Positions 9,901 to 26,072 are shown, counted from the first letter of the stretch. The stretch is DNA of 34,115 nt from Candidatus Woesearchaeota archaeon (GCA_018302605.1 JAGVZN010000012.1:1-34115), one strand, 5' to 3'. Notes: generated by a model from the sequence alone, not told the origin. A program made the numbers and translations.

Positions 9901-12900
9901 GGAAGAGGTCAATGAGATGATGAGCTGTGAATTTATCCTCAAACAGCTTCTTCCACTCGGGGAGAGCAAAACTGTTTCTGTTTCCGCAGACATTCTGGAT
10001 AAAAAAGTGATCTTCTCCGATCTTACCGGCATTAAATACGGCTTGACCGTTGCTTGTCTTGACCAACATGGCAACAGCGGTGTTGCGGAACAGAAATATT
10101 CGTTTGACCTCGAACAAAATATTAACTTGGTTTATCCAGCAAAAGGCCAAGTCATTGCTGAGACCATGGTTCCATTTAAAATTGAGACCAGCATCGGCGT
10201 AACCTGTTCTCTTTATGAAGCTTTCTCTAACCAAAAGATCGCTGATTTTGCGACGACAGCGGACGGCATTGTCCACGAAACTATTCCTCTCCCGCTCTCC
10301 GAAAAAGAATATGTGGCAGAACATCAAGTTTTCTGCACGGATTTGCTTTCCGACAAAACATACGAAGACTATTTTGATTTCATTATTGATTCCACGCCTC
10401 CTTCCGTGCTTGTGGAGCTGCAGGAAGGAACACGCTCTGTCCAGCACCTGGATGATGATTGGCAGGAATCGTTTATCTCTCAGGCAGCAGTGCTCCTTTC
10501 CTGCGCTCCGGGAGGAGTTGCCTGTACCAATATTTATTCCTGTCTTGGGGCGCACTGTGGTCCTGCCGACGTGTCTTCTTACACAGTATACACGGAATCA
10601 TTGATTGTAGAGCAAACCACAAAGATCTGTTATTACGCTGCTCCTCCTGCTGAATCCACAACCATTGACGTTTCCTGCGGCTTGATTACGATTGAAGGTT
10701 TTGGGATAACCCTAGACAAACCACCACGCCATACCTCAGAGGGGGAAATGTGGGGGGTGAGTGCAACGATTCCTTTCGACTGGCAATTTTACACGAAAGT
10801 GCCGACGCAGGAATGCAAATTTGATTTTGTACCAGGGTTTAACTATGACACTCTTGCAAAATACAAAGGAAAAGAAAAGAATGGTGCAGGGAAATACCTT
10901 TTTGAGAATTTTCCGGACAGCGTCTTTACTTCTTATAATTCAAACGGCGACGTCAAGACGGTGTACGTCCAATGTAAAGATGCTGAGGGAACGCCCAGTC
11001 CGGTACAGAAAATGTTTCTGGAGTACGATCCAACACCCCCCCAGATCACTTCACTAAGCGCTTCTCCTGAACCGATCATCGAAGGGATCAGTACACTCAT
11101 TACCGTTGCTACCGATGACAAGACAACCTGTATGTTCACGGATAAAGAGACAACCAAGACCTATCCTTTCCCTGGTAAAGAAGAGCATCAATTAAAGACC
11201 GTTCACGAAGGAACATTTTACGTAGGCGATTTTATCGGCAGTACCAAGACCTACACACTCAGCGTGATCTGTGAAAACGGTGCGGGTTTGCAATCAGAAC
11301 CGCGGGAAGTCACCGTCCAGGTAGATTATGCTCAGAAAGGAAGCATCGTTTCCATCTATCCTCAAAACACATACCTCCAAAACGGCCCCGTAGCCGCTGA
11401 AGTTATAACCACTAAAAATGGTTATTGTGAATATAAAAAAGGCGATGAATACATCTCATTCTCTACCACTAATGGTAATACTCACCAAACATCACTTAAC
11501 GGCACCGACGAAGGTTTTTATACTATCCCTCTCCGCTGCTTCTTTGGGGATGCTTCTCAGGAAAGCGCGTTTAGTTTTACTCTTGACCGTCAAGTCCCAT
11601 TGATCACAGAAATTAATGATGGAACGGCTACCTGTGGAAACGAGAGCTGGTCCATTCTCGTTGCGACCAATGAATCGGCGATTGCCAACTATTCATATAC
11701 CATCTACGAAGCGACAGCTTCCCCTGTTGTAACTATTGGTAATAAAAATCTTGGTAATAAAACTACTTTCAGCAAAGGGAACATTTTGACCAAGCAAACT
11801 GCCGGCGCGGATTTACCGATAGAGATTACCTTTTCTGCTTTTTCGGGACTGGTTTCTTCCGACCAGAACACGATGAAAGGACTGATCTTCTCGGTTAGCG
11901 CAATCGATGCAGCAGGAAATATCGGTCCAACTAAAGAGAGTGACGGTGTAATTGTTTCCAATGCTTCCAACCCTGCCTGTCTGGATGATACAACTTTTCC
12001 TAGTGTCTCATTTTCTACAGTGGATAGCACTTCCTGCACATCACGTCTGGTCTCCATGAACTGTACTGATGCAACGGGATGCCAGGATTATCTCTATGGC
12101 GTGGGCAAAACGCAGGATTCTTGTACTCCTGCCCTGCCTTACAATGGGAAAAATATTGAATTAAAATCTACGAATTATGTCTGCTACACAACAAATGATG
12201 CGGTCGGGAAAAGCAAACCGGGTGCTGCCCAGATCTTCTTTGAAGATGTTGATGGGGATAGCATTACTGATTCATGTGATCTTTGTTCCGGCACGCTTGC
12301 TGGGAAAGTAGTTGATGCGGAAGGTTGTGCTGGGGGACAGATTAGCCCGGAGAGCCAGACCGTAGATAGTGATGGGGATGGATTGCCCGATGCGTGGGAA
12401 AATCAATTCAATTCATTAAGCTGTCTTTTATCTTCGGTAAGTAAAGACAGCAATTCAGACAGTGTTCTTGACGGGCAGGAAGACTATGATCAAGATATGT
12501 TGACTAATTATCAGGAATTTAGCAGCGGTAAAAACCCCTGCGTCGCAGAGGTAGTTTCTTCCTCAGATCAATTACCTGTTCAACCCATCGTACCATCTAC
12601 CTACCCACAGTTTATGGCATGGCTGTTATTAATTGTGGGAATCGTTCTCTCTCTTGGCGGTTTGGGTTATCTGCTTTATGCTCATCTTACTTCAACACGA
12701 AGATCAAGCGTGCCTGCTGCTCGTCGTCCACAAGCATCAGGAATTTCTCCTGCACGGCCTCTTTCTACAGCTCAACATCCTGGCTTGGGTGATCAATTCA
12801 TGGCGTGGAAACGAACTCGCCAAGAGCGAGCTAAAGAAAAATCAAGGACAGCCATCTTTGAAGAGTTCGGTAAAGGAAAGAAAAGTGTTGAGTCACTGCA

Positions 12901-13111
12901 GAATGTTGCTCAGAGGTACCTCGAACGAAAAGAAGAGATCCGTCCTCAACTGCAGCCGCAAGAGCGCAGCGTCTTTGACAAGCTGGAATCAATCGCCCAG
13001 CAGTCGAGAAAAAAAGATATCCATGAAGTCGTGAGCAAAGATGAAGCAGAAGATATCTTTGAAAAATTACGGGACATCGGCAAGAGAAAACAGAAAAAGA
13101 AGGCTAAATAA
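6983..13111 (+). CDS. Giant multidomain surface protein with C-terminal TM and cytoplasmic tail
   Basis: 2042 residues. A signal peptide covers residues 1-35 (RKRG then a hydrophobic core ending in PAQETQA). Next is a Cys-rich region, then a carboxypeptidase-regulatory-like beta domain from about G189 (GxVxDxxGxPLxxAxVxI...T...G.Y.F) and a second related one near 273-345. A fibronectin III-like domain lies at about 436-540, followed by a very Cys-rich block to about 830. Ig-like domains start at D-x-T-P-P-type junctions at residues 831, 948, 1136, 1349, 1535 and 1668. Thrombospondin-3-like DxDGDxxxD loops occur at 1755 and 1795. A single membrane helix at about 1877-1902 is followed by RR and about 140 charged, probably coiled-coil, residues predicted to be cytoplasmic. 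This type I topology suggests an adhesin or cell-envelope organiser. A TATA box at 6949-6956 supports the start. Partner and ligand are unknown. Confidence 0.9.
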   Translation: MRSRKRGLAVASALLFLVLFLALSLPLIPAQETQAKGCYSYPQGRLDLSCKTGGVTEEAAKEDCASFAGCVITQWFKPASTCAEISECEIVTCDAAKYACQEVPRGACTQAGGKEIIPSDVAAQCVKGCCVIPLPDGPFCNPDLVFQSECADLAASTPGAPASYQFNNDESMTLAICQQQFCKAALETGGLKGIVTDALGKPLENAAIEILGTTKKVVTTASGAYSFTNVVPVTYSVKISAWGYIDLIQQVSLSAGEPTVRDFTLQKAVGEATLRIIVRDQSPKLLPEVTVAWKGPVQGNKKTDTQGTVLLQNIPSGTYTILISAIGYVTQEIKKNVGPGEVLVEAVLTQAAFQGVQGTTYIGQEKKYEVSIYVDGFFKTKSKYPSGIYSISLPADGKEHTISATYQNFVSPIHKVAVVQNQILSLDIFLSPLKGECTPEGTNPEKNVAVFSAHPLPGQESVRLIWEKPCPEVAGYTLQRKDGEKLLATRTISGVETLFVDSDVEWGKTYSYTLVAHFDSGLSSKDAAVATITLGDQECAGRYNEATGSWSSFCLVEDRQVVQTCTAENVLTPVQECSSLGNTWYCAQTTSTTASCKDAGICLVNAAPFGLYASEEICYGKNDDNFCSYDSSTTTIANQCLSCAEIESCFAYQSRSACEKNNCLSSTCAWIDVASPPALVDYSYLFSSTIFSPLMTTPETGAGYCVEQEYPSDDQCSLCSPGASLFENYFCTPVVCSSLGRCFANPEETSCAQCKDSPAPDATCYSYASEEECSGTGGIAKDDFGRLSLSADRCSWGRCSWDGARCFKDGNADQKDDCADIKGSSIACAVDNTPPTTTATGSLVVSLNNPLITFVADDSSSKPGQGNPLQNIYYCLSPANGPSTCTSEKFQSTNFKGLSTKESISINISQFPALMTAKQEGEIFTLYFSSQDIFFNQEQVQQGTLYVDMIPPQFNVIGETSTSGKISQLDLHLEEVNEMMSCEFILKQLLPLGESKTVSVSADILDKKVIFSDLTGIKYGLTVACLDQHGNSGVAEQKYSFDLEQNINLVYPAKGQVIAETMVPFKIETSIGVTCSLYEAFSNQKIADFATTADGIVHETIPLPLSEKEYVAEHQVFCTDLLSDKTYEDYFDFIIDSTPPSVLVELQEGTRSVQHLDDDWQESFISQAAVLLSCAPGGVACTNIYSCLGAHCGPADVSSYTVYTESLIVEQTTKICYYAAPPAESTTIDVSCGLITIEGFGITLDKPPRHTSEGEMWGVSATIPFDWQFYTKVPTQECKFDFVPGFNYDTLAKYKGKEKNGAGKYLFENFPDSVFTSYNSNGDVKTVYVQCKDAEGTPSPVQKMFLEYDPTPPQITSLSASPEPIIEGISTLITVATDDKTTCMFTDKETTKTYPFPGKEEHQLKTVHEGTFYVGDFIGSTKTYTLSVICENGAGLQSEPREVTVQVDYAQKGSIVSIYPQNTYLQNGPVAAEVITTKNGYCEYKKGDEYISFSTTNGNTHQTSLNGTDEGFYTIPLRCFFGDASQESAFSFTLDRQVPLITEINDGTATCGNESWSILVATNESAIANYSYTIYEATASPVVTIGNKNLGNKTTFSKGNILTKQTAGADLPIEITFSAFSGLVSSDQNTMKGLIFSVSAIDAAGNIGPTKESDGVIVSNASNPACLDDTTFPSVSFSTVDSTSCTSRLVSMNCTDATGCQDYLYGVGKTQDSCTPALPYNGKNIELKSTNYVCYTTNDAVGKSKPGAAQIFFEDVDGDSITDSCDLCSGTLAGKVVDAEGCAGGQISPESQTVDSDGDGLPDAWENQFNSLSCLLSSVSKDSNSDSVLDGQEDYDQDMLTNYQEFSSGKNPCVAEVVSSSDQLPVQPIVPSTYPQFMAWLLLIVGIVLSLGGLGYLLYAHLTSTRRSSVPAARRPQASGISPARPLSTAQHPGLGDQFMAWKRTRQERAKEKSRTAIFEEFGKGKKSVESLQNVAQRYLERKEEIRPQLQPQERSVFDKLESIAQQSRKKDIHEVVSKDEAEDIFEKLRDIGKRKQKKKAK

Positions 13112-13171: not shown

Positions 13172-13711
13172 ATGAAACACAGATTTATTTCCGGGAAAAA
13201 AGGACTGGGTGCAGGGCAAGTCTTTGTCTACATCGTTGCCGCGCTTACCTTTGCTTTGATTATGATCTTTGGCTACAAGATCATCAATGATTTGATCCAC
13301 ACAGGGGAAGACGTGCAATTTCTTCAGTTTAAAACCAGTTTGGAAACTTCCATCAAAAAAATATATCCCGAATTTGGTTCGGTTCGAGAAGAAACATTTT
13401 ACCTGCCCGGCAGATATACTCAAATCTGTTTTGTCGATGTCACCAAACAATTTGATCCAGACCTCTGCGCTTATGATGCTGCGGCATGCAATTTCTGGAA
13501 AACGATGGATACCCCTAACTATGATCTGGCGGCAGAAAATGTATTTCTTACGCCGGCAGCTGCACAGCAGATCAAGGTTTTCACGATTGATCTTTCTCCT
13601 GCTCACCCTGGAGAGGAAGGTTTTCTCTGTCTGCCGATCAGCCAGGGAACATTTACGATACGTTTGGAGGGAAAAGGAGATCGAACTGGAATAGCTCTCC
13701 CTCAGCCGTAG
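13172..13711 (+). CDS. Pilin-like small membrane-anchored protein
   Basis: 179 residues. The N-terminus has GKKG (G11), then L-G-A-G-Q and a hydrophobic helix at about residues 17-35. The external part is about 140 residues with Cys pairs (QICFVD; DLCAYDAAACNF; FLCLP). This looks like a class III signal/pilin-like anchor exposing a small disulfide-bonded domain. It is the first gene of a tight run: the next start is 3 nt after the stop. GAGGAG lies at 13150-13155, 16 nt before the ATG, which is rather far for a Shine-Dalgarno site, so the exact mode of initiation is unclear. No named family is recognised. An overlapping antisense frame (13157-13981) is treated as a shadow. Confidence 0.85.
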   Translation: MKHRFISGKKGLGAGQVFVYIVAALTFALIMIFGYKIINDLIHTGEDVQFLQFKTSLETSIKKIYPEFGSVREETFYLPGRYTQICFVDVTKQFDPDLCAYDAAACNFWKTMDTPNYDLAAENVFLTPAAAQQIKVFTIDLSPAHPGEEGFLCLPISQGTFTIRLEGKGDRTGIALPQP

Positions 13712-13714
13712 ACC

Positions 13715-14800
13715 ATGGTCCGCATTTTTTCTCAAAGAGGTCAGCTTGATCTTCCTTTCAACTGGATTTATGTACTCATCGCCGGGGGGGTCATCCTGCT
13801 TTTTTTTGTTGGGGTTGTGGTCAAGCAGAAAGATGTTGCTACGCAACAACTTGGAACCGATGTCAACCAGATCCTCAGCTCGATTGCCACCGCTGCTGCT
13901 GCCGCTGAATCCACCAAAGTAGTCGTCGAGACGAGTGGTCTTGCCGATGAGACACTTTATTTCGAATGTCGAAACGCGCAAACGGAATACGGCATTAAAA
14001 GCAAGGGTTCACCAGTTACTGATCCAATTATCCCCATCTTTGCACCCGCAGAGATCAACAGCAAAGAATTATTGTTATGGAGCCTGCCCTATTTTTTGCC
14101 GTATAAAGTTACTGATTTCCTCTATATCACCTCACCCACAATCCAATACATTTTAGTTGGTAATGATGCGCGTGTTCAGGAATTTCTGAAAGAATCAAAG
14201 TCCAGTGAACAGGCAAAGTTTGTTCTCTCTGTAACGAAAACTGCTGATCTCGCTTCATTTTCACCACAAAAGGGTAAGCAATCATTTCGGATTATTGATT
14301 ACACTGGTCTTGCTGTCCAGCCCGGAGGAATTGTTCCGGCAGGGTTGCAAAAGCTGGAAAATCGGCAGGTAAGTGCCGTCACTTTTAGCGGCGGGGCAGC
14401 CACTTTTTTCGTGAAGAAAGGAACTGCCTGGCAGAGTGAAGGGACTACCATTCTGTTTTCGTTAGGCGGGGATCTCGATGCTGTGCATTACGCTGCTGTC
14501 TTTTCTGACCATAAAGACATGTTTGAGTGCGGGATGCAGAAAGCATTTCAGCGTCTCAAGTATGTGTCTGATGTTTATGAGAAAAAAGGGCTTGCCTTGG
14601 AAAACTCCCCCGGGGCGCAGGATGGAAATTGCCCGGTGCTGTTTAGCGGACTGCCCTGGCTACTCCTTGCTCATCAGGGCGATTCAACATTATGTTCTGA
14701 TTTCTATCCTGAAAATTGTGTAAGCCTCGTGCAGAAATCCGGAGAGATCCGGAGCCTCAATCAGCAGCTGTTCAGCGCGAACTGTCCGCCATTATACTAA
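13715..14800 (+). CDS. Pilin-like membrane-anchored protein
   Basis: 361 residues. The leader reads SQRGQLDLPFNW, with the predicted processing point at G9/Q10, then a hydrophobic helix at about 16-37 and an Ala-rich amphipathic stretch (residues ~50-70). The ectodomain of about 290 residues has few cysteines, mostly in its last 100 residues. The start is 3 nt after the preceding stop, and the next gene follows 13 nt after this stop, so it belongs to the 13172-15865 transcription unit. A seven-G run at 13784-13790 encodes part of the hydrophobic helix (Ala-Gly-Gly-Val). Probably a subunit or accessory protein of an extracellular assembly; the precise role is unknown. Confidence 0.85.
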   Translation: MVRIFSQRGQLDLPFNWIYVLIAGGVILLFFVGVVVKQKDVATQQLGTDVNQILSSIATAAAAAESTKVVVETSGLADETLYFECRNAQTEYGIKSKGSPVTDPIIPIFAPAEINSKELLLWSLPYFLPYKVTDFLYITSPTIQYILVGNDARVQEFLKESKSSEQAKFVLSVTKTADLASFSPQKGKQSFRIIDYTGLAVQPGGIVPAGLQKLENRQVSAVTFSGGAATFFVKKGTAWQSEGTTILFSLGGDLDAVHYAAVFSDHKDMFECGMQKAFQRLKYVSDVYEKKGLALENSPGAQDGNCPVLFSGLPWLLLAHQGDSTLCSDFYPENCVSLVQKSGEIRSLNQQLFSANCPPLY

Positions 14801-14813
14801 GAAGTGAACCCAA

Positions 14814-15326
14814 ATGATCATTAAAAAAACAAAACAAGGCCAGATCCACATCACGGAAACGATCGCCGTCCTCTTTATTTTCTTTGTCCTGCTTTTTTTT
14901 GGTTTGGTCTTCTATTACAAATATGCTGATGTTTCAGCGAAAGAGCAGTTGGCCGAGAACCTCGAACGGCGTGCCGTTGACAGTACGACAAGGTTCATCT
15001 TTCTGCCGGAAGTACAATGTACGCAAGGTGAACTTCCTCCATTTTCGTATTGTCTTGATCTGCTGAAGCTAAACGCATTTAAAGATATGCTTTTGGGGGA
15101 TGCTTTGGATGAGTACTATTTTCATCTGTTCTCTTTTGCCAAGATCACCATCCAAGAGGTCTATCCTGATCCGACTCGTTCTTGGGTTGTCTATAATAAG
15201 CCAAAAATTGATTACTCTTCGAAGAAAATAACCTATTTTAGTACGGCACTAGAGGACACCAGCGTCTTTGGGGGCACAGAGCCAAGCATCTATTTTGGCT
15301 ATGTGGCAATGGAGGTCTATTCATGA
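14814..15326 (+). CDS. Pilin-like small membrane-anchored protein
   Basis: 170 residues. The N-terminus KKTKQGQIHITETIAVLF gives a Q-G-Q processing motif (G9/Q10) with a glutamate seven residues into the mature form, then a hydrophobic helix to about residue 35. An aromatic YYKYAD segment and about 130 extracellular residues with two or three cysteines follow. The last bases overlap the next gene's start by 4 nt (ATGA), indicating coupling. Its size, topology and motif match the neighbouring genes, so I infer a shared export/processing route through an archaeal prepilin peptidase not encoded here. No specific family is recognised. Confidence 0.85.
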   Translation: MIIKKTKQGQIHITETIAVLFIFFVLLFFGLVFYYKYADVSAKEQLAENLERRAVDSTTRFIFLPEVQCTQGELPPFSYCLDLLKLNAFKDMLLGDALDEYYFHLFSFAKITIQEVYPDPTRSWVVYNKPKIDYSSKKITYFSTALEDTSVFGGTEPSIYFGYVAMEVYS

Positions 15327-15865
15327 TCTCTGTTTCTGGAGGCAGGAATCGGAAAGGGCAGATGGAGATGATCGGGCTGGTGGTCATCGTTCTCCTGGTG
15401 ACAATTGCTTTCTTGTTCCTGGCGCAGTTTGCCTTACGCGACAACTCCGATGATCAATTTTTTGCCCGGAAACAGCTGGCCGTAAGCACGCTTACGGCAA
15501 TCAGTAAAACGACGGTGCAGAACTGTGAGCTGGACGGCCCACTGGAAGTACTTTCGGTGAATGACCTTTTGAAAGACTGCGCCGATAATCCTGAAGGTGG
15601 TTTTGGCTTTCTCTGCCAAGGAAAATATAGTTGTGCTTATTTGCAGGAAAACCTCTTTCCCATATTATTTGGAGGGAGCCTGGATACGTTTAAGCGTCGT
15701 TATGAATTCGTTTCTTTTATTATCCAGAATCCCGATCCTCCGCTTCTTTTTCTTACCGGCAAAAACGGTGGCTGCCAAGGAAGGAAGAATGTTGATACGT
15801 CTGGTGATTTCCCATTGAATGCCGGTGTTGGCGTGATCGAGAGCCGGCTGCTGATCTGTGATTAA
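15323..15865 (+). CDS. Pilin-like small membrane-anchored protein (KGQMEM motif)
   Basis: 180 residues. The leader GGRNRKGQMEMIGLVVIVLL has a good archaeal type III/pilin processing signature: basic pair, Gly12, Gln13 and a glutamate at the third mature position, then a hydrophobic helix to about 35. The external domain is about 145 residues with cysteines in QNCELD, LKDCADN, FLCQGKYSCAYL and GGCQG, likely disulfide-bonded. It is the last gene of the 13172-15865 run. Its stop codon (15863-15865) touches the left target duplication of the mobile element at 15873-16048, so the insertion landed just after the gene without damaging it. Confidence 0.87.
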   Translation: MISVSGGRNRKGQMEMIGLVVIVLLVTIAFLFLAQFALRDNSDDQFFARKQLAVSTLTAISKTTVQNCELDGPLEVLSVNDLLKDCADNPEGGFGFLCQGKYSCAYLQENLFPILFGGSLDTFKRRYEFVSFIIQNPDPPLLFLTGKNGGCQGRKNVDTSGDFPLNAGVGVIESRLLICD

Positions 15866-15872
15866 AGTCAGC

Positions 15873-16048
15873 GTACCTATTAAGTCTGTGCATGGGCAGG
15901 TCGGCCTGCCTCGTCTCGCCCAGAAGCAGAGATCAGTTGAACTGAAGGGTTATTCTTAAAGATGAGCGAGAGCATTATTTTTCTGTCCAATCGCAACGCT
16001 CGGCAGACCATCTTGACCAAGCCCGCACAGACTTAACTTAATACGTAC
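15873..16048. mobile_element. MITE-like element, copy 1 (176 bp)
   Basis: The element has imperfect terminal inverted repeats: it begins GTACCTATTAAG and ends CTTAATACGTAC. Inward, AAGTCTGTGC pairs with GCACAGACTT, GGGC with GCCC, GGTC with GACC and CTGCC with GGCAG, so the whole unit can fold into one long interrupted stem. It is flanked by a direct repeat AAGTCAGCGTA at 15865-15875 and 16049-16059. Allowing for chance identity with the element's GTA, the duplication is 8-11 bp. A second copy lies at 25305-25477 with different flanking repeats, which is what a transposed element leaves. There is no open reading frame inside, so it would need a transposase in trans. Removing it leaves a clean junction between the stop at 15865 and the promoter at 16063. 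Confidence 0.78.
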
Positions 16049-16062
16049 AAGTCAGCGTAAGA

Positions 16063-16070
16063 TTTATATA
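16063..16070 (+). promoter_or_regulatory. TATA box for the 16119-22642 operon
   Basis: TTTATATA lies four bases beyond the right target duplication of the mobile element. Transcription would begin near 16092-16097, leaving a leader of about 25 nt that contains GAGGTG at 16107-16112, six bases before the ATG at 16119. The mobile element therefore sits directly upstream of this promoter, next to the position of the TFB recognition element. Confidence 0.6.
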
Positions 16071-16118
16071 GGTTTGTTGGTTATTATTCTCTATAATTCA
16101 GGCAAAGAGGTGTTAATT

Positions 16119-16469
16119 ATGAATCTTCATAAAAAAGGGCAAGGATTATCGTTAAATGCAATTATTGTGGCGTTATTGGCGTTGATTGTACTGGTGGTAT
16201 TGGTTGTTCTCTTCGTGACCAGAACGGGGCAGGTTGATGTAGGAGCGCAGAAAGCGGCAGATCCAGAACTCAACTTGTTGAAATTGGGTTTTGGTGATTG
16301 TCATCCTTCGGTCAGTGATCAAAATTCATTCACGTCGGAATTCGCCGCCGCCGATGGTGATGCCGCTGCTGAGGAAGCTGCGCGATCCAAATTTAAATCA
16401 AGAATCAGCACCTGTAAGGCCATCGACGATAAGACGGCGTGTGCAGTTGGTACCTGTTCCTGGAAATAA
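16119..16469 (+). CDS. Pilin-like mini-protein, Cys-containing
   Basis: 116 residues from the ATG at 16119. I chose it over the in-frame codon at 16074 because GAGGTG lies six bases upstream, a TATA box at 16063-16070 fits, and the protein then begins MNLHKKGQG. Processing is expected at G7/Q8, then a very hydrophobic helix of about 20 residues (14-33). The exposed part is short, Ala/Asp/Glu-rich in the middle, with four cysteines in the second half. It is the first gene of the second surface operon, 20 nt ahead of the next gene. Specific function unknown. Confidence 0.82.
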   Translation: MNLHKKGQGLSLNAIIVALLALIVLVVLVVLFVTRTGQVDVGAQKAADPELNLLKLGFGDCHPSVSDQNSFTSEFAAADGDAAAEEAARSKFKSRISTCKAIDDKTACAVGTCSWK

Positions 16470-16489
16470 GCAGTTGGAGTGTGTTGTCT

Positions 16490-16825
16490 ATGCGCAAAGG
16501 CTCAACAGAAATGTGGTGGATTATCATTGGGGCAGTGATCGCGCTTGTCGTCTTGATTATTCTGATGGTTCTCTTCATTGGGAAAACCCGCGGGTTGGAA
16601 GGGGGGTTGACAGAATGTGAAGGGAAAGGGGGGATTTGTACTCAAGACAGCAGCCAGGAATGCCCGGGCAGAACGCTTCTCTCCACATCGTTCAGCTGTA
16701 AAGTTTCAGTACAAAAATGTTGTATTGGGATCCCCACAGAATGTACTGATGATAATGCTTGCGGCGTAGGGGGAAAATGTTCTCCGGTAGGTGCGTATGC
16801 CCATGCTAAACGCTATTGCACATGA
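16490..16825 (+). CDS. Pilin-like Cys-rich mini-protein (KGSTEMWW motif)
   Basis: 111 residues from the ATG at 16490. The longer frame from 16439 would put 17 residues ahead of the MRKG leader and overlap the previous gene, and a TTGGAGTG Shine-Dalgarno-like stretch precedes 16490. The N-terminus is MRKGSTEMWWIIIGA: basic pair, Gly4, then a glutamate at the third mature position and a Trp pair starting a 20-residue hydrophobic helix. The exposed domain of about 75 residues holds ten cysteines, enough for five disulfides (a knottin-like density). The gene at 19634 has almost the same first 14 residues (KGASEMWWIIMAA), so the two are probably paralogous anchors with different caps. The 3' end overlaps the next start (ATGA). 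Confidence 0.83.
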   Translation: MRKGSTEMWWIIIGAVIALVVLIILMVLFIGKTRGLEGGLTECEGKGGICTQDSSQECPGRTLLSTSFSCKVSVQKCCIGIPTECTDDNACGVGGKCSPVGAYAHAKRYCT

Positions 16826-17001
16826 AACCGTTATCTTATCAGTGCCCTTGCTTGCTTCGGGGAAAGTTTCAGATAGAATCAAGGCAAGGTGAAACAGATT
16901 GGACTAGTCCGCAGATGCTCGTTATTCTGATTCTCGCCGTCTTGCTCGGATTGGTGTTTATCTTTTACGTTTTAAAATTGAAAGGAAGGTTACTGCCATG
17001 A
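16822..17001 (+). CDS. 59-residue membrane mini-protein
   Basis: Starts with the ATG overlapping the previous stop (ATGA), in preference to the TTG two codons upstream. The N-terminal 30 residues are polar with a C-P-C pair. R-Q-G-E-T-D-W (G23/E24) then resembles the processing motif of the neighbours, and a hydrophobic helix runs at about 32-52. If cleaved after G23, the mature peptide would be about 36 residues, almost only a membrane helix. It ends with a 4-nt overlap into the next gene. Too small for a family call; its place in a chain of overlapping genes is the best evidence that it is real. Confidence 0.65.
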   Translation: MKPLSYQCPCLLRGKFQIESRQGETDWTSPQMLVILILAVLLGLVFIFYVLKLKGRLLP

Positions 17002-17159
17002 AATTGGGGCTGTTTATCCCTGGTAAGAAAGGGATGGAGATGTGGCAGTTGGTCTTATTGATTCTCGCGCTAATTCTATTGGTATTCCTCATCGCCTGGT
17101 ATGGTGGATTAAATAAAGAGTTGGGCGGCTTATTGGAGAAAGCAACGGGGCTGTCCTGA
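16998..17159 (+). CDS. 53-residue pilin-like mini-protein (KKGMEMW motif)
   Basis: A short gene: MKLGLFIPGKKGMEMW, then a hydrophobic helix (about residues 17-34) and a small amphipathic tail ending GLS. KKG at 10-12, with a glutamate at the second mature position and a Trp, repeats the signature seen at 15323, 16490 and 19634. It starts inside an ATGA overlap with the preceding gene, and its TGA shares one base with the ATG at 17159, so translation is probably coupled on both sides. The size suggests a minimal pilin-like subunit or an assembly adaptor; that is inference. Confidence 0.7.
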   Translation: MKLGLFIPGKKGMEMWQLVLLILALILLVFLIAWYGGLNKELGGLLEKATGLS

Positions 17160-18730
17160 TGGTCGATATCAAAAAAGTTATCTCGTACCTGATCCCGCTG
17201 ATTTTTTTAGTGCTGATGGTCATTTGGCTGTTCGGTGGTTCTTTTCCGGAACTGAAAGAAAAAGTGTCTGGAATTAAAGAGTATGTTAAATTTGGTGCGG
17301 AAGAAGAATTGGGGGCAAAGCCGACGATCGCTGATGATCATCGAGTCCGCATCCAGAATTTGCTGAAGACGATGAACGAGATGAAAAAAAGTTCTGTCAA
17401 GAATTGTTTTGCGAATTATGGAGGACTGCCACCGTTGGGAGAGAAAGGCACGTCGATCACTTTTAGCTATGATGCGGCGAAGGACGCAACGAAAGTGATC
17501 GTGAAGGGGGGTGCGGAAGGAGTGCAGATCGTGGAAATAGAGGAGGGAAAAGGAGAATTGGAACTGCCGGGGATCAGGCCATGTGTGATCGCGGGAAAAA
17601 ATGGCGATGAAGTAATAGCAAAAAATTTTTATGATACCTTCCTCAACGAGAAACCAGAAGTGAAGAAATATTTTACTTTCTCGATAAATGATTTTACTCT
17701 GGCCTATGATAGAGGCAATCATATTTCTACTGGTGGTCGCACCATTGATAGTGGTTTTCAAGATGGCGGTTGGTTATTTACGCCGGGAGACGGTAAGATC
17801 TGTTTTTTCCCTTCGACGACGGGGTTAAGCTGTGGGGGAAAGATAGGCGGTTTGCAGAATGATTGTTTAGAAGATGATCCCAGCGAAACTGATTCCATCC
17901 CATATCTCTATGGTCGAGGCAAATTATTGGAGTGCAGTCAGAACAAAGGTTATGGTTTTATTGAAGCAACTATCCATGGGAGCTCAGGTAAGGGGATCAT
18001 TTCCGGTCGTTGTCCGGTTGGTGGTCGTTGTACTTTTCGGGAATCCTGTAAAAATACATACCAATCCAATACCGTTAACAGACCTAATTGCGTCATCGGG
18101 GTAACTATGGACAATGACGATAGTAGTTGTGGCTGGATTGAAGTTAAGCCCGGCACCAAGATTGGACATGGGAATGTTCAAAATAAATTAAATCAAATCA
18201 ATTGGTATACAACCCAAGATGCGAGTGAGAGTGGTGACCTATCTGTGGAGATCGTGAATCAAAATCTTCACATTTTCCTGTTCAATACTGCTGATCCGGA
18301 ATTAACCTGTGGCAATAATGGGGTCTGGAATATCTTTGGTTTAGTGGATGTAGCTTCTATTCCGGCTGCCGTCGATGATCGTTTTAAGACAGAAGCGGGA
18401 TTTAGTCAGTTTGGTATTAATAGCTGTGCCGATCTGAAAGATAATGATGATAATAGTCGTATTGACTGTGATGATTCCAGCTGCTTGACTAATCTTGCTT
18501 GCATCCAAGATAAAAATGGTGGCCAAATTCTCAAGAAGAGCTGTTTTGATAGTCTTGATAACGAGATGATATTGGTCGATATCGATTTTGAGGAGGATGG
18601 TTCTTATCAGGGAGGGATTAAAGAAGACGGTTCTGCTAACAAGCTCATCGATTGCGCAGATCCCATCTGTGAGGATGTGGAATATCAGAAGCAAAAGTGT
18701 TCGGAATCTGAGGTTATAAATTTAATATGA
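17159..18730 (+). CDS. Membrane-anchored protein with Cys/Asp metal-binding-like repeats
   Basis: 523 residues with an N-terminal membrane helix at about 8-25 after MVDIKK; there is no clear Gly processing site, so a plain signal anchor is likely. The ectodomain has a beta-rich middle. At C423 there is a CADLKDNDDNSRIDCDDSSC block, and at C462 a related one (CFDSLDN ... LIDCADPIC) split by about 23 inserted residues. These follow the C-x-D-x-x-DND-x-D-x-x-IDC-x-D-x-x-C pattern common in archaeal surface proteins, probably a disulfide-braced metal loop. The gene is joined to its neighbours by 1-nt and 4-nt overlaps. Function unknown beyond extracellular display. Confidence 0.83.
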   Translation: MVDIKKVISYLIPLIFLVLMVIWLFGGSFPELKEKVSGIKEYVKFGAEEELGAKPTIADDHRVRIQNLLKTMNEMKKSSVKNCFANYGGLPPLGEKGTSITFSYDAAKDATKVIVKGGAEGVQIVEIEEGKGELELPGIRPCVIAGKNGDEVIAKNFYDTFLNEKPEVKKYFTFSINDFTLAYDRGNHISTGGRTIDSGFQDGGWLFTPGDGKICFFPSTTGLSCGGKIGGLQNDCLEDDPSETDSIPYLYGRGKLLECSQNKGYGFIEATIHGSSGKGIISGRCPVGGRCTFRESCKNTYQSNTVNRPNCVIGVTMDNDDSSCGWIEVKPGTKIGHGNVQNKLNQINWYTTQDASESGDLSVEIVNQNLHIFLFNTADPELTCGNNGVWNIFGLVDVASIPAAVDDRFKTEAGFSQFGINSCADLKDNDDNSRIDCDDSSCLTNLACIQDKNGGQILKKSCFDSLDNEMILVDIDFEEDGSYQGGIKEDGSANKLIDCADPICEDVEYQKQKCSESEVINLI

Positions 18731-19629
18731 TGTCCAAAAAAGCAATCGCCGCTGGTGTCATCGTTGTCTTAGTGGTTACTTTAGTCAGCTTCTTCCTCTT
18801 AGCTGGAACAATCGTGAAATTCAATAAAGAAAGCGAAGAAAATCAGAAAGTGACGTTGTGTAAAGATAGCGTCCAGTTTCGGGCTGCAACAACGCTTTCT
18901 GTAGCTGATGTGGAAGAGATAAAATTATTTCCTCCGCTCTGCCAGACGATAGATAAAAAAGTGTCTGGCGACCAGGCAAAAGTCCAGAAAGCGATCGCCG
19001 ATTCGATGGCGACGTGCTGGCAGATGTTTGGCGAGGGACGATTTAAGAAGAACATCTTTGATACAATCAGTTCTTTTGGCGGTGATGCGAGCTGTTTTAT
19101 CTGCTATACTATTTTGGTTGATCCGAGTACGAAGTTCAAAGAAAATGATTTGGTAAAACCAGCGGATTTTCAGACGTATTTGCTGAATACTCCTTATCGT
19201 TCTTACACCCCGCCGGATAGCCCCAAAGGAACACCCAAACAGATAGAATCATATCATCAATATATTCAGTCCGGTAATGGTCCGGGTTATGTCTATGGGT
19301 TTTTGACTGATCAGGGAATCCAGCCGGGACGTGCCTACGCTGTGATGTATAAAGCAAAGCATACTGATTTGGGAGCAACAGGTGCGTTGCTTGGTGTTGC
19401 TGCGGGAACCTTTGCTGTTGGCAGTGTTTTTACTGGCAACATTCTTGGTGCGATCGCAGGCGCTGCTGTTGCTGGTAAGACTTTGGTTGAAGGAATTAAA
19501 TTGATAATAACAATACAAACAAACATCGACGGCATTTACTTGGTAGACATCAGCGATCCGGATCTGAGAACAGCGTTCTTTGAAGGAGAAGACCATTGTT
19601 CTTATGTGGGAGACTTAGCAGGAGGTTAA
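18727..19629 (+). CDS. Membrane protein with two hydrophobic segments
   Basis: 300 residues. MMSKKAIAAGVIVVLVV opens a hydrophobic helix (about 7-29); a KKA rather than KKG leader may still be a processing site. The extracellular part has several cysteines (TLCKDS, PPLCQT, ATCWQM, SCFICYTI). A second glycine/alanine-rich hydrophobic stretch at about 218-255 could be a membrane hairpin or a glycine-zipper segment, which none of its neighbours has. The start overlaps the previous stop (ATGA), and the next gene follows after 4 nt. No family is recognised. The extra segment makes this a candidate for an assembly or pore component rather than a simple subunit. Confidence 0.8.
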   Translation: MMSKKAIAAGVIVVLVVTLVSFFLLAGTIVKFNKESEENQKVTLCKDSVQFRAATTLSVADVEEIKLFPPLCQTIDKKVSGDQAKVQKAIADSMATCWQMFGEGRFKKNIFDTISSFGGDASCFICYTILVDPSTKFKENDLVKPADFQTYLLNTPYRSYTPPDSPKGTPKQIESYHQYIQSGNGPGYVYGFLTDQGIQPGRAYAVMYKAKHTDLGATGALLGVAAGTFAVGSVFTGNILGAIAGAAVAGKTLVEGIKLIITIQTNIDGIYLVDISDPDLRTAFFEGEDHCSYVGDLAGG

Positions 19630-19633
19630 GAAA

Positions 19634-19918
19634 ATGAAAACAAAAAAAGGGGCATCAGAGATGTGGTGGATTATCATGGCGGCAATCTTAGCTATTGTCA
19701 TCGTCATTATCGTGATCATCTGGTTTAAGGGAAGTGGTGGAAGAGCCTTTGAAGATGTTGATAAAAAGATTGGTGGCTTGGCCGATTGCGATAAAGACGG
19801 TGTCGCCGATTTGTTTGACAAATGTAAATGTGATCCGGCTATCGGAGAAGATTTCCCTTCTGGTGTGACGGCGTGTCCTACGGATAAGAAATGTGCAGAT
19901 CCGCCCGTCTGTGTGTAA
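19634..19918 (+). CDS. Pilin-like mini-protein with EF-like loop (KGASEMWW motif)
   Basis: 94 residues: KTKKGASEMWWIIMAA leads into a hydrophobic helix to about residue 31. A short linker and one thrombospondin-3/EF-like DxDxDGxxDxxDxC loop (D-C-D-K-D-G-V-A-D) follow, then a six-cysteine tail. The N-terminus is nearly the same as that of the gene at 16490, while the exposed cap differs. The gene starts 4 nt after the previous stop, close enough for coupling. Probably a calcium-stabilised, disulfide-linked tip or spacer protein; this is inferred from composition. Confidence 0.8.
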   Translation: MKTKKGASEMWWIIMAAILAIVIVIIVIIWFKGSGGRAFEDVDKKIGGLADCDKDGVADLFDKCKCDPAIGEDFPSGVTACPTDKKCADPPVCV

Positions 19919-19943
19919 CAATCCTGAACAAGAAAGAATAACC

Positions 19944-20615
19944 ATGAACAAGAAAGCGATAATGGTCAATTTTCTGGTCACCGTAGTCTTAGCCATCCTC
20001 ATCTTTGGCGGGGCGACGGCGATCATCGCCAAAGTCTTGGGCGTGGACCAGCAGGCGAAACAGAACTTCTACAAGCTGGATAAAGAATTACGGGAATTTG
20101 CGCAGAGTGACAAAGATCTTTCTGGATTCCTGATGATTTTGGATGAGGAAAGCTATGTCGCAAAATTTACTAAAGATACAAATCTTAATCTACTCGTTTT
20201 AGTGAGAAGAACCCCTATTGGAACATCGGTTAGTCCTGTGCCCGTAGAGCCGATTGATGAATCTCAAAAAAGAGTATATCAGTACCCCTCGCAATGCGCA
20301 GGGAAAGATTGTCTTGTTCTCTGTAAAAAACTGGCAATGATTGATGATACTTGGACGGTACGCTGTGACGAAGCACTTATCCTTCCGGTTTCAGAAAAAT
20401 TCATCATTGAACCATTCTTGGTGATCCGTACTCAAAAAATCGACTATCGCAAGATATTTGACTATAACCAGAAAGTGATTTCCACAGAAGGGGATAATGT
20501 GATTGAAATCACCGGTGCTGCCACTTCCCGAAGAGTTCCGGTCAATCTTGTGCGCAAAGAAAAAAGGGATGATGGAAGAAATTACATTTCCATTTCAGGT
20601 TCCAGTATCCAATAG
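19944..20615 (+). CDS. Membrane-anchored protein (MNKKA type)
   Basis: 223 residues from the ATG at 19944. The frame extends back to 19893, but that would overlap the previous gene and add 17 polar residues ahead of the basic MNKK leader. A hydrophobic helix runs at about 9-31, then a helical stretch (KNFYKLDKELREFAQ-like) and a beta-rich external domain with four cysteines around CAGKDCLVLC. The leader has KKA rather than KKG. The gap to the previous gene is 25 nt and to the next 9 nt. No named family. Confidence 0.82.
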   Translation: MNKKAIMVNFLVTVVLAILIFGGATAIIAKVLGVDQQAKQNFYKLDKELREFAQSDKDLSGFLMILDEESYVAKFTKDTNLNLLVLVRRTPIGTSVSPVPVEPIDESQKRVYQYPSQCAGKDCLVLCKKLAMIDDTWTVRCDEALILPVSEKFIIEPFLVIRTQKIDYRKIFDYNQKVISTEGDNVIEITGAATSRRVPVNLVRKEKRDDGRNYISISGSSIQ

Positions 20616-20624
20616 TGATCTCGC

Positions 20625-21029
20625 ATGAACAAAAAAGCAGCCAGCATCATCCTGATGCTTTTTGAAGTGATTGTCGTGATCGTGGTCGTAGGCATTGCCC
20701 TCACTGTTGCCACACGGCTGGGAAAACCAGAAACAATCAACAAGATCACTGCTGCTGAAGACCTGGCAATGATGGTCAATACGCTGGTTGCCCTGCCCGG
20801 AGACGCGCTGGTGGAATATCCCCGTAATATGTCATTGTATTCTCTCGTTCTGACCTCCCAAAAAGTGACTATTTATGAAGGCGATCAAACCAAAGATCGT
20901 GATCCCGTGTCCAGGCCGTTCATTTTGCCGCAAGGCTATACTGCCACAAAATTTGTCAAGCAGAAAGCAAGCGTCTGCCTGCAGAAAGAAGGGAAAACAA
21001 TTGTTATTGTGGAGTGTCCTAAACCATGA
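20625..21029 (+). CDS. Small pilin-like membrane-anchored protein (MNKKA type)
   Basis: 134 residues: MNKKAASIILMLFEVIVVIVVVG gives a basic leader, a glutamate inside the hydrophobic helix and a 20-residue membrane span. The mature part contains the stretch LAMMVNTLVALPGDALVEYP, then a beta-rich C-terminus with two cysteines. The glutamate buried in the helix recalls the conserved acidic residue of type IV pilin helices. The gene overlaps the next one by 4 nt (ATGA). Assigned to the same surface operon; function not otherwise known. Confidence 0.82.
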   Translation: MNKKAASIILMLFEVIVVIVVVGIALTVATRLGKPETINKITAAEDLAMMVNTLVALPGDALVEYPRNMSLYSLVLTSQKVTIYEGDQTKDRDPVSRPFILPQGYTATKFVKQKASVCLQKEGKTIVIVECPKP

Positions 21030-21520
21030 GCGACAATGATGTGTTTGAAGTCGGGAGAAAAACAATCTATTGGATGATCGCCAGCTTTATCATTGGCGTG
21101 CTGATGATTGCGTTTGTAATCTTCATCGTTGGATATCAAGGGAAGCTGACCGCTGTACCGGGAGAACTAAAAACTGGATTCATCACCCTGCGGTTTGTGA
21201 CCAATCCTGATTGTTTTGCCTATCAGGATGCCACGGGCAGGACCTTCCCTTACACGATTGACCTCAGTAAATTTACCAAAGAGAGGATGAATCTGTGCTA
21301 TTTGACTGATCCGGAGAAAGGTTATAACACGTTCAACTTTAAATTAACACTCCACGGTCGGGATATGTCTCTGGCCACAAATAACTTTTTTAATGTAGTT
21401 TATTATAGTCCATTGGGATACGCCGTCTTAATCTGGGATGGGGAAAAATTCATCAGGGATGATCTCCTCATTGAAGTACAAGAAAGCATTTCATCTATCC
21501 CTACGATGAAAGGTAGTTAA
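21026..21520 (+). CDS. Small membrane-anchored protein
   Basis: 164 residues. MSDNDVFEVGRKTIYWMIASFIIG is an acidic start followed by RK and a hydrophobic helix at about 14-36. The remaining 125 residues look beta-rich with two cysteines (PDCFAY, MNLCYL). It differs from its neighbours in lacking the KKG/KKA leader, so it is probably an uncleaved signal anchor. The start is an ATGA overlap with the previous stop. No family is recognised. Confidence 0.8.
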   Translation: MSDNDVFEVGRKTIYWMIASFIIGVLMIAFVIFIVGYQGKLTAVPGELKTGFITLRFVTNPDCFAYQDATGRTFPYTIDLSKFTKERMNLCYLTDPEKGYNTFNFKLTLHGRDMSLATNNFFNVVYYSPLGYAVLIWDGEKFIRDDLLIEVQESISSIPTMKGS

Positions 21521-21542
21521 AGTTGCTAACAAAGGTCAAAAC

Positions 21543-21872
21543 ATGAAAATAATTTCCAAGAAAGCGATGATGGACGATCTATTCGACGTTTTATTTACCG
21601 TGATGGTCGCTTTTTTTGCGCTCTTATTTATCAATGCCGCACTGGTTAAAAGTATTGATGACCGCAACGAAAGATCGTTGGGAGAGATGACTGCGGTCTT
21701 GCAGAATGGTCATAAAATCATCGTGGAGCAGGAGGCTCTGGAACAAGGGGGAGATGCTTCTGCTCTATTAGGAGTCAGAGCCGAAATAGAAAAGCATAGT
21801 ACAACTTTGCCTCTCAAAGCGGCAAGGAAAGAAGGCGAGGTTACTCTTCTCGTCGAAGGACAGCAAAAATGA
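21543..21872 (+). CDS. Small membrane-anchored protein with coiled-coil-like tail
   Basis: 109 residues: MKIISKKAMMDDLFDVLFTVMVAFFALLF contains KKA, then an acidic patch and a hydrophobic helix at about 15-32. The exposed part is short, charged, free of cysteines and probably helical (RNERSLGEMTAVLQ...). The gap from the previous gene is 22 nt, and the 3' end overlaps the next start by 4 nt. The helical, Cys-free nature sets it apart from the disulfide-rich caps nearby. Confidence 0.78.
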   Translation: MKIISKKAMMDDLFDVLFTVMVAFFALLFINAALVKSIDDRNERSLGEMTAVLQNGHKIIVEQEALEQGGDASALLGVRAEIEKHSTTLPLKAARKEGEVTLLVEGQQK

Positions 21873-22642
21873 ATAAGAAAGGCGCGGTGGTATTGCATTG
21901 GATACTCTTTGGCATCATTGCCGCGATAGGGTTATTTCTCTATTATAGCAATACCTCTGACCTCCCCGTTCAGGCTCCCCTCGGCTCCTGGCAGCTGGAA
22001 ATGATTAATAGCTTCCTTTACAAATCGGAATTAGATCTGTTAGACTTGGATCTCTCCGCGCGGGAAACGGGTTGGAAAGTGGTTTCAGAATTAGCCGGCC
22101 GTGGCGGTTTTCTGGAACAATCGTCCTGCGGCATGGAAAAGGGTGTCAATCGCTGGAATATCGTTGATAAATGGTGTCTGCCCGATGAGAAAGAAAATCT
22201 GAAAACATTATTCTTTCAATTATTCCCCAATCCCGAGGGGAGAGGTTTTTCTCCATTAGCCATTGCGGGCCAACGGATTATGTCTTCTGGGGGGATGAAG
22301 ACGTTGAAGAGTACTGATCACTATCTACGACAATACACCTATGATTATAGCTTTAACGTAAACCTGCACTATTCTTTTGACGAATATGCCCAGTTAGCAG
22401 CCGAAGCGCGGAAGATGGTAGATACCTGCCGAGGGGAGGAAGCGTTGGAAGCAGTTGCCGAATGCCTAAAATTGGTGAAGCCAGAACACTGGCATTATAC
22501 TTCTTGTGACGTTCCTGTTGTTCCACAGGAAACTCGTATCTGGCCGTTCTGCGTGAAAAGTCCGAATAATGTCGAGATTGAAGGGAAAGTAGTAGAATAT
22601 AATCTGGCGTTGGATTTTACGGGGTATAGTGATCCCGTTTGA
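21869..22642 (+). CDS. Membrane-anchored protein (MNKKGA leader), last gene of the surface operon
   Basis: 257 residues: MNKKGAVVLHWILFGIIAAIG, with a KKG leader and a hydrophobic helix at about 8-26. The external domain has cysteine pairs spread over residues 90-240 (SSCGMEKG, DKWCLP, VDTCRGEE, AECLKL, TSCDV, PFCVK). Its start overlaps the preceding stop (ATGA). The next gene has its own TATA box at 22690, so this looks like the operon end; only a weak T-rich stretch follows. No named family. Confidence 0.82.
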   Translation: MNKKGAVVLHWILFGIIAAIGLFLYYSNTSDLPVQAPLGSWQLEMINSFLYKSELDLLDLDLSARETGWKVVSELAGRGGFLEQSSCGMEKGVNRWNIVDKWCLPDEKENLKTLFFQLFPNPEGRGFSPLAIAGQRIMSSGGMKTLKSTDHYLRQYTYDYSFNVNLHYSFDEYAQLAAEARKMVDTCRGEEALEAVAECLKLVKPEHWHYTSCDVPVVPQETRIWPFCVKSPNNVEIEGKVVEYNLALDFTGYSDPV

Positions 22643-23411: not shown

Positions 23412-23515
23412 AAATAGTTGGATGGTTATCTCCAATAAATGATCTGTATTTTCCACTATCCAAATGGTTATAAATCATTTTCATTATGTTTCTCTTATAA
23501 TTGGGGGCATTATTC

Positions 23516-24514
23516 ATGTATAAGATACCACTCGCAGAGTTGAAAGAAAAAATTACCAAAAACGGCGCTTTATCGTCGATAGAACTGGACGAAAAGATCA
23601 AAGAAAAGATCAACGAGCTTTCCGGGCTGATCAGCGAGGAAGGGGCCGCTCATATCATCGCCAACGAGTTAGGCATTGAGCTGATTTCTACGGCTACTTC
23701 TCAGAAGCTTAAAGTGAAAGAGATTTATAGCGGGATGCGCAATATCTCTGTCGTCGGACAAGTGGTTCAGAAATACGAGCCGCGCACATTTACTAAAGGC
23801 GACAGCCTTGGCCGGGTATGTTCTGTACTGATTGGGGATGAGACGGGCACGATCCGTCTGGTTTTCTGGAATGAGCAGGTAGATCAGGCAGTTTCACTGC
23901 GCGTGGATGATGTTGTGCGGGTGAATGATGTCTATGTTCGGGAGAATAATGCCGCTCCGGAAATCCATCTTGGCTCTCGTGGCACATTGGATGTAAACCC
24001 AGAAGGGGAAACCGTAAGCAGTGTCCGCAAGAGTAGTAAGGGATATGAGCGCCGGAAGATCGAAGAGCTAAAAGAGACCGGTGATACTGCCGAGATTGTC
24101 GGCACGATCGTACAAGTTTTTGATCCGCGTTTTTTTTATACCTGTCCTCAGTGCAACAAGAAAGCGCTGGAAAATAGTGGCACGTTTCTCTGCGGGGAAC
24201 ATGGTGCCGTAGAAGCCAATCTCGCTTATGTCCTTAATGCGGTCTTAGATGATGGCACGGGGATGATCCGCGGCGTATTTTGGAAAAACCAAACCAACTA
24301 TCTTCTGGGAAAAGATGAAGTGCAGGTCGGGGCTTATAAAGAAGAACTTCCTTTATTCGAGGACGTGAAGAACGATCTCCTCGGCGAGCAATTCAAACTG
24401 CTGGGGAAAGTTAATAGAAATGAAATGTTTGACCGCTTGGAATTCAACGTGCAGATCGTCGAAAAAGCAAAGCCTGAGGAAGAAATGCTGCGCTTAGAGC
24501 AGCAAGAGTCATGA
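23516..24514 (+). CDS. RPA-type single-stranded DNA-binding protein
   Basis: 332 residues from the ATG at 23516, preferred over the TTG at 23501; a G-run ends 8 nt upstream and a TATA-like TTATAAAT lies at 23468-23475. The N-terminal ~65 residues are helical. A first OB fold spans about 68-165 (SVVGQVVQKYEPRTF...DETGTIRLVFWNEQ) and a second about 178-300 (AEIVGTIVQVFDPRFFY...DGTGMIRGVFW). The second contains a C210-x2-C213-x12-C226-x2-H229 zinc finger, as in archaeal RPA large subunits. It protects ssDNA and recruits recombination and repair enzymes. The next gene encodes a nuclease of the Holliday-resolvase-related group 1 nt downstream, and radA is 1.6 kb away, a coherent DNA-repair neighbourhood. 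Confidence 0.9.
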   Translation: MYKIPLAELKEKITKNGALSSIELDEKIKEKINELSGLISEEGAAHIIANELGIELISTATSQKLKVKEIYSGMRNISVVGQVVQKYEPRTFTKGDSLGRVCSVLIGDETGTIRLVFWNEQVDQAVSLRVDDVVRVNDVYVRENNAAPEIHLGSRGTLDVNPEGETVSSVRKSSKGYERRKIEELKETGDTAEIVGTIVQVFDPRFFYTCPQCNKKALENSGTFLCGEHGAVEANLAYVLNAVLDDGTGMIRGVFWKNQTNYLLGKDEVQVGAYKEELPLFEDVKNDLLGEQFKLLGKVNRNEMFDRLEFNVQIVEKAKPEEEMLRLEQQES

Positions 24515-24515
24515 G

Positions 24516-24935
24516 ATGGTCTTTGCTGATCTGGATACGATTATTATCCTCTTTGTCGTTGCTGTCATCGCCTATTTTCTGGGAAGAATCCTGCGTGATC
24601 TGTATTGGAAAGAACAGATCGATGCCATCCGCAAAGATGCAATTAAACGCTCACGCGCCGTGTTGGGCGGCCAATTTTCTGAGCAGTTAGCGCCATTTCT
24701 GCCCGATTTCCCGTTTTCACCGACGGAATGTCGTTTCATCGGCAAGCCGGTTGACTTTATTGTATTCAAAGGAATGGATGGCAAAGCAATCGAAGAAGTT
24801 GTTTTTGTGGAAGTAAAGAGCGGGAAAGCAACATTGTCTGGTCCCGAAATGGTGTTGCGGGATGCGATTCGGGAGAGGAGGGTTTCGTGGGTAGAATTTA
24901 AAATTCCGGAAGAATTAACAAAAAGTAAAGGGTGA
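24516..24935 (+). CDS. Membrane-anchored endonuclease related to archaeal Holliday junction resolvase
   Basis: 139 residues. A hydrophobic helix at 8-26 is followed by a basic linker. A PD-(D/E)XK-type core then shows E56 (GGQFSEQLAPF), D80 (GKPVDFIVFKG) and E99-V-K101 (VFVEVKSGK), with the RDAI...V.WVEF ending typical of the Endonuc_Holl family (Pfam PF10107). The predicted activity is Mg2+-dependent cleavage of a DNA or nucleic-acid structure; the true substrate of this family is not firmly known. It starts 1 nt after the RPA stop and is presumably co-transcribed with it. The membrane anchor would place the nuclease at the inner face of the cell membrane. Confidence 0.83.
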   Translation: MVFADLDTIIILFVVAVIAYFLGRILRDLYWKEQIDAIRKDAIKRSRAVLGGQFSEQLAPFLPDFPFSPTECRFIGKPVDFIVFKGMDGKAIEEVVFVEVKSGKATLSGPEMVLRDAIRERRVSWVEFKIPEELTKSKG

Positions 24936-24956
24936 AAAACAAAAAAAAAATAAAAA
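24936..24956 (-). terminator. T-run terminator for the zinc-ribbon gene
   Basis: On the minus strand this stretch reads as a near-continuous run of T (broken by one A and one G) about 30 nt after the stop of the leftward gene at 24986. That is the usual oligo-T form of archaeal intrinsic termination. It directly follows the stop of the rightward gene at 24935. Confidence 0.5.
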
Positions 24957-24985
24957 TGAGATACTAAAGCTATTATGATCAGAAA

Positions 24986-25177: not shown

Positions 25178-25304
25178 ATTTCTCACTCTATTGTATTTTA
25201 CTCCATATCAAAAAACGTCGATCAACAGACGATTAATCCGCTGTGTTTCTAGATATGTGTATTAATTCATTTATAGTGGCACTATATAAATCTTTCTGGA
25301 AAAT

Positions 25305-25643: not shown

Positions 25644-25664
25644 ACTCCCCGGCTGATCAGTTTT

Positions 25665-26071: not shown

Positions 26072-26072
26072 T

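Follow-up and report, generated by a model that had tools for sequence, protein, structure and literature searches.

A conserved cluster of pilin-like surface proteins in Woesearchaeota and related orders, possibly a type IV filament-like machine with an alternative or missing platform

What do sixteen consecutive genes for mostly pilin-like proteins build in a Candidatus Woesearchaeota genome, when no assembly machinery is encoded among them? The genes (g1 to g16) occupy positions 13172-22642 of a stretch of 34,115 nucleotides (GCA_018302605.1, JAGVZN010000012.1:1-34115; hereafter the window), which is contig C9 of an archaeal genome of 1.16 Mb, 32 contigs and 90% completeness. A preliminary description had seen sixteen genes, nearly all pilin-like, and had proposed that they may form an undescribed surface structure. 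All 16 open reading frames (ORFs) were recovered, tightly spaced and operon-like, with a single 253-bp gap (15866-16118) that divides four genes from twelve, and in 14 of the 16 the product starts with a leader that is short and basic, followed by a K/R-G/A site and a single hydrophobic helix, the exceptions being g9 and g14. Literature searches of open-licence full texts found no published description of the cluster. The explanation that we favour, and to which we give an even chance of being right, is that these proteins are subunits of an envelope-spanning type IV filament-like machine (pilus or pseudopilus), found in Woesearchaeota and related orders and having an alternative or missing platform. 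The cluster genes and two upstream genes, up1 and up2, are the following:

4344-6830, plus strand: up2, 828-residue surface protein with its own class III-like leader (VQG followed by QITIFMILGIVILVV)
6983-13111, plus strand: up1, 2042-residue giant surface protein directly upstream of g1
13172-13711, plus strand: g1, core pilin-like protein (GKKG followed by LGAGQVFVYIV)
13715-14800, plus strand: g2, core pilin-like protein (QRG followed by QLDLPFNWIYVLIAG), structure modelled
14814-15326, plus strand: g3, core pilin-like protein (KQG followed by QIHITETIAVLFIFF)
15323-15865, plus strand: g4, core pilin-like protein with conserved cysteines (RKG followed by QMEMIGLVVIV), structure modelled
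16119-16469, plus strand: g5, small pilin-like protein (KKG followed by QGLSLNAIIVALLALIVLVVL)
16490-16825, plus strand: g6, small Cys-rich pilin-like protein (RKG followed by STEMWWIIIGAVIALVVL), paralogous to g5 in leader and helix
16852-17001, plus strand: g7, tiny single-helix protein (RQG followed by ETDWTSPQMLVILILAV); start codon uncertain, probably TTG at 16852
16998-17159, plus strand: g8, tiny single-helix protein (KKG followed by MEMWQLVLLILALIL)
17159-18730, plus strand: g9, membrane-anchored protein without a processing site
18727-19629, plus strand: g10, class III-leader protein (SKKA followed by IAAGVIVVLVV)
19634-19918, plus strand: g11, class III-leader protein with an Asp/Cys-rich exposed part (KKG followed by ASEMWWIIMAAIL)
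19944-20615, plus strand: g12, class III-leader protein (NKKA followed by IMVNFLVTVVLAIL)
20625-21029, plus strand: g13, class III-leader protein (NKKA followed by ASIILMLFEVIVV)
21026-21520, plus strand: g14, single-helix protein whose window copy lost the processing site
21543-21872, plus strand: g15, class III-leader protein (SKKA followed by MMDDLFDVLFTVMV)
21869-22642, plus strand: g16, class III-leader protein (NKKG followed by AVVLHWILFGIIAAI)

The leader motif is conserved among orthologues in 15 of the 16 families (for example g2 23/23, g5 27/27, g10 26/26, g11 26/26 and g4 23/24). It is present in 19 of 25 relatives of g14 and in only 2 of 27 members of the g9 family. The same loose criterion was passed by 24 of 304 control ORFs, several of them falsely, so that the motif is commoner in the cluster; an N-terminal hydrophobic stretch was present in 88 of these 304. 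From g1 to g8 conservation is highest in the mature helix, with pairwise identities of 0.42-0.77 against 0.29-0.46 for the exposed part. In g4, Gln13 (mature +1) and Glu15 (mature +3) are invariant in 60 sequences, as is the glutamate of the TETI motif of g3 across its family alignment. The g5, g6, g8 and g11 proteins have the leader-helix region in common and different exposed parts, the same pattern of shared helices and differing heads as in pilin families. Pfam scans of all cluster proteins returned chance-level matches only and gave no family for any exposed part, and the earlier remark that these parts differ completely is upheld. The AlphaFold2 (AF2) models of g2 (pLDDT 92.8, pTM 0.86; a 47-residue N-terminal helix with one beta and one helical domain) and g4 (pLDDT 90.3; a transmembrane (TM) helix and an alpha/beta head containing the conserved Cys) have a predicted architecture reminiscent of pilins, with heads that resemble nothing known among the structures compared.

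Conservation of gene order, on which the proposal of a surface structure depended, proved strong. The relatives were surveyed by profile search in 193 genomes of the order and 279 of the phylum, and g2 was found in 159 and 219 of them, respectively; the named genomes with a g2 relative belong, with few exceptions, to Candidatus Woesearchaeota or Nanoarchaeota, and g9, used as bait, matched in 32 of 59 relatives. The order from up1 through g1 to g16 and on to RPA is almost invariant in 27 loci of the window's Woesearchaeota family, and in 20 loci from other families of the order the framework is kept with a varying number of g5/g6-type copies. Across 64 named contigs the layout is as elsewhere, with g2-g3-g4 consecutive in nearly all, and up1 keeps its position upstream of g1 in 57 of 64 loci. 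Two loci of one family (L064 and L065, family f25) carry the middle block (g5-g11 types) in the opposite orientation to g1-g4, which suggests that this block is a separate transcription module. The window copy of g9 is about twice the length in most relatives, with an Asp/Cys-rich extension, and its alignment matches that of g11 with an HH probability of 98.9.

The cluster is not, however, a homogeneous block. Eight loci were read from other orders of the class. The cluster genes recognised there were up2-up1-g1-g2-g3-g4 alone, and g5-g16 were not found; in most of these loci an S-layer (surface layer) gene of the PF05124 family (E down to 8e-17) lies directly after g4. No gene of this family was found among 1957 ORFs tested from the remaining loci, where g5-g16 fill its place. 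Thus g1-g4 with up1 and up2 are the old core of the class, and g5-g16 look like genes that were added, or took the place of others, in the window's order. The giant protein up1 has a Sec-type N-terminus, carboxypeptidase-regulatory-like domains, a C-terminal TM segment and a basic cytoplasmic tail; up2 has profile matches at the equivalent position upstream of up1 in many relatives and a form of about 256 residues in other orders. Two further large surface proteins are encoded upstream in the window (1-4217), one of more than 620 residues truncated by the contig end and one of 785 residues with a MopE-type metal-binding motif (PF11617). In one genome of another order (G270, L166:8189-19990), core g2-g4 lie directly upstream of a ribosomal protein operon.

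Type IV filament systems are recognised by an ATPase, a membrane platform and a major pilin, with a prepilin peptidase (generic definition; Denise et al., 2019, PMC6668835). The claim that the cluster lacks its own machinery stands for the cluster itself and, as far as the platform is concerned, for the genome, in which the Pfam model detected no T2SSF protein (ArlJ included); it does not stand for peptidase and motor, which are encoded elsewhere. The source genome has one A24 prepilin peptidase (G000:C30:29269-29595, E 8.4e-15) and, on contig C24, one T2SSE-type ATPase of 789 residues, whose nearest solved structures are GspE2, CpaF and FlaI. The peptidase occurs in 179 of the 193 genomes of the order. 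Of the three conditions that the preliminary description had set for refuting its proposal, two were thus checked and neither holds: the cluster is conserved in relatives, and the genome encodes a prepilin peptidase. The ATPase query matches 190, most best matches exceeding 50% identity over nearly the full length, and the nucleotide-binding motifs are kept in 21 aligned sequences. Near the peptidase gene of the source genome lies a further leader-bearing protein (MGKKGSLNLSIEAIVIIVIAF).

T2SSF was detected in 158 of the 193 genomes of the order and undetected in 35, and in the window's own family 21 of 26 sampled cluster-bearing genomes are without detectable T2SSF; these counts strengthen the earlier view that the cluster does not fit a standard archaellum or type IV pilus. 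T2SSF-less members include three assemblies of 2-8 contigs that are 96-98% complete (G018, G008 and G017); nearly all listed genomes of other orders have T2SSF. The 35 T2SSF-less genomes keep the peptidase (34), the g2 cluster (31), the ATPase (32) and the M-type membrane protein described below (33). Exactly one ATPase match was found in 28 of these 35, against two to five in most T2SSF-bearing genomes (Mann-Whitney p = 2.5e-19, uncorrected for phylogeny). Read most simply, this means that ordinary pili dependent on T2SSF come and go as separate loci, and that this ATPase and the pilin-like cluster are independent of T2SSF.

The ATPase gene belongs to a locus with the order M1-M2-M3, facing the genes cc2-cc1 for coiled-coil proteins, and then the ATPase. 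M1-M3 (L003:11601-13470) are three paralogous five-TM-like polytopic proteins of unknown family, and comparison of M1 with Pfam and PDB gave nothing consistent. M-type proteins, present in 185 of 193 genomes of the order and 266 of 279 of the phylum and encoded close to the ATPase in 15 of 21 loci, are a near-universal uncharacterised membrane protein family in the phylum. In the window's family (L003:13711-15684) its neighbours are genes for a secreted membrane protein, Ig-like of the CARDB type, and for SepF (PF04472), which hints at a link with cell division.

In comparison with known systems, the cluster and its genome resemble the type IV filament superfamily in leader and hydrophobic helix, in the A24 peptidase and in the T2SSE/FlaI-class ATPase, and the models of g2 (long helix and head) and g4 (TM helix and head) might reflect a pilin fold, but no T2SSF/PilC/TadC platform was detected in the source genome and neither model has a significant PDB match. 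We favour the view that, as regards leaders, peptidase and class of motor, the cluster works as type IV filament systems do, but we do not rank it as a member of the superfamily, because the membrane platform, a defining component (PMC6668835), was looked for and not found. Archaeal type IV pili of the TadC type (T4P; Makarova et al., 2016, PMC4858521) also combine class III-type leaders, an A24 peptidase, a GspE2/FlaI-class ATPase and several different pilins, with S-layer-like and large surface proteins frequent in their loci; here, in contrast, many genomes are without TadC/T2SSF, a block holds up to 14 leader-bearing subunits, the ATPase lies elsewhere and known pilins are matched neither in sequence nor in fold. 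In Thermoproteales clade 4D (PMC4858521) the ATPase adjoins, by description, a 4-5-TM membrane protein without a clear TadC; those loci have no pilins, whereas here three paralogous five-TM-like proteins accompany a separate, rich pilin-like cluster. The archaellum (ArlC/D/E-F-G-H-I-J) is similar in its FlaI-like ATPase, in coiled-coil cytoplasmic proteins near the ATPase and in class III leaders, but differs in that the present genome has no detected T2SSF (ArlJ), a cc1 that is weakly FlaC-like and no archaellin-like Pfam match. Some DPANN dark-matter islands, with fast-evolving secreted proteins, were suggested to encode diverse pilins (Makarova et al., 2019, PMC6393860, Fig. 2A), and the same work lists as enigmatic a secreted protein often found beside S-layer-like genes (cls.004306, NEQ255). 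Those islands were recognised through FliI and TadC, neither of which is in our cluster, T2SSF being undetected in the genome. To that account the present analysis adds a core shared across the class, the position of this core beside S-layer genes, the strict order of the 16 genes, and persistence without T2SSF alongside a dedicated ATPase and the M1-M3 locus.

An undescribed surface machine, presumably of many subunits, is suggested because many genomes keep peptidase and motor without a detectable standard platform. In such a machine, the A24 peptidase would cleave the leaders of the cluster proteins, and the helices conserved in g1-g4, the core found irrespective of order, and in g5-g8 would come together as a single hetero-oligomeric bundle or short filament. 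The ATPase would power assembly via M1-M3, which would replace the platform, cc1 and cc2 may take the cytoplasmic position that ArlC/D/E have in the archaellum, and up1 and up2 could be exposed adhesins or envelope scaffolds. Since the core adjoins S-layer genes in sister orders, the most likely role of the machine is to organise or span the S-layer and to make contact with other cells, not to drive swimming. A bolder version can be put forward only tentatively and is somewhat improbable: a prepilin-based envelope machine of an undescribed class, which would assemble a hetero-oligomer of many different subunits by means of a dedicated ATPase and a platform of three proteins that have no relation to T2SSF, would be ancestral to the class of tiny archaea around Woesearchaeota and would be built into, or replace, the S-layer.

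Several observations weigh against the filament-like machine. Foldseek comparison of the g2 and g4 models with PDB returned no solved pilin and nothing significant, and profile searches of PDB with both gave nothing credible. A weak point is that the absence calls for T2SSF come from a single Pfam model and draft genomes. Close linkage of ATPase and cluster was seen in one genome only (G120), where the ATPase gene shares an overlap with a leader-bearing gene of the up2 type, after which come one opposed gene and then up1-g1-g2-g3-g4; general linkage is unsupported, the other same-contig pairs noticed being about 30 kb or more apart. Near-universality makes the co-occurrence of ATPase and cluster weak evidence, and from this one linkage and shared near-universality we infer their coupling. 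A 91% complete genome (G101; L069, G101:C11) keeps up1-g1-g16 and the A24 peptidase, with no detectable ATPase of this type, M-type protein or T2SSF, and 33 genomes have an ATPase match without detected g2, probably in part through limited search sensitivity. M1 was rejected as a divergent T2SSF at the sequence level (HH probability 0.8%), a platform role for M1-M3 being a guess from position and distribution, and cc1 matched FlaC_arch weakly (4 of 15 members, best E 0.039). Finally, because the helix of g9-g16 is not clearly more conserved than the rest, some of these proteins may be plain membrane anchors.

In the main rival explanation the peptidase would remove the leaders, and the single-helix proteins would stay as monomeric or small-complex anchors for the S-layer or for up1/up2, without ATPase-driven polymerisation. 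The S-layer gene directly downstream of g4 in most other-order loci, the presence of g5-g16 in its place elsewhere, the adjoining giant surface proteins, the G101 genome with its cluster and no detected ATPase and the unremarkable helices of g9-g16 all fit such an S-layer or envelope scaffold. We nevertheless consider it rather unlikely: the helices of g1-g8 are more conserved than the exposed parts, unlike those of simple anchors, and the ATPase persists in T2SSF-less genomes and adjoins up2-up1-g1-g4 in G120.

The neighbourhood downstream of the cluster (window 23501-27047) encodes RPA, a membrane-anchored Holliday-junction-type endonuclease (24516-24935, PF10107 Endonuc_Holl) and RadA. These neighbours would suit a pseudopilus-like secretion or DNA-uptake machine, in which pilin-like subunits carry substrate or DNA across the envelope, and RPA indeed follows the cluster in most order-level loci with the downstream end covered, RadA in several; but neither was seen beside the core in the loci read from other orders, and the PF10107 nuclease adjoins the cluster in few relatives only, so that we regard this function as improbable. 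An ordinary archaeal type IV pilus, whose T2SSF is present and was missed through assembly gaps or divergence, is strongly disfavoured. The 90% completeness of the source genome and the presence of T2SSF in most genomes of the order and nearly all those listed from other orders speak for it, yet the Pfam model matches 13 of 14 control genomes, the absence is phylogenetically clustered in the window's family and extends to the near-complete assemblies named above, and the T2SSF-less genomes are also without additional ATPases, as the loss of whole ordinary pilus loci would predict.

Woesearchaeota and their sister orders form a very large, almost wholly uncultured archaeal radiation. How these archaea meet other cells becomes a testable question with a surface system that is near-universal among them, has processing sites that can be recognised and comes with a candidate motor and a candidate platform. 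If it is true that the platform is replaced, the filament-like machine would be an exception to the rule by which machines of the type IV filament kind require a T2SSF protein.

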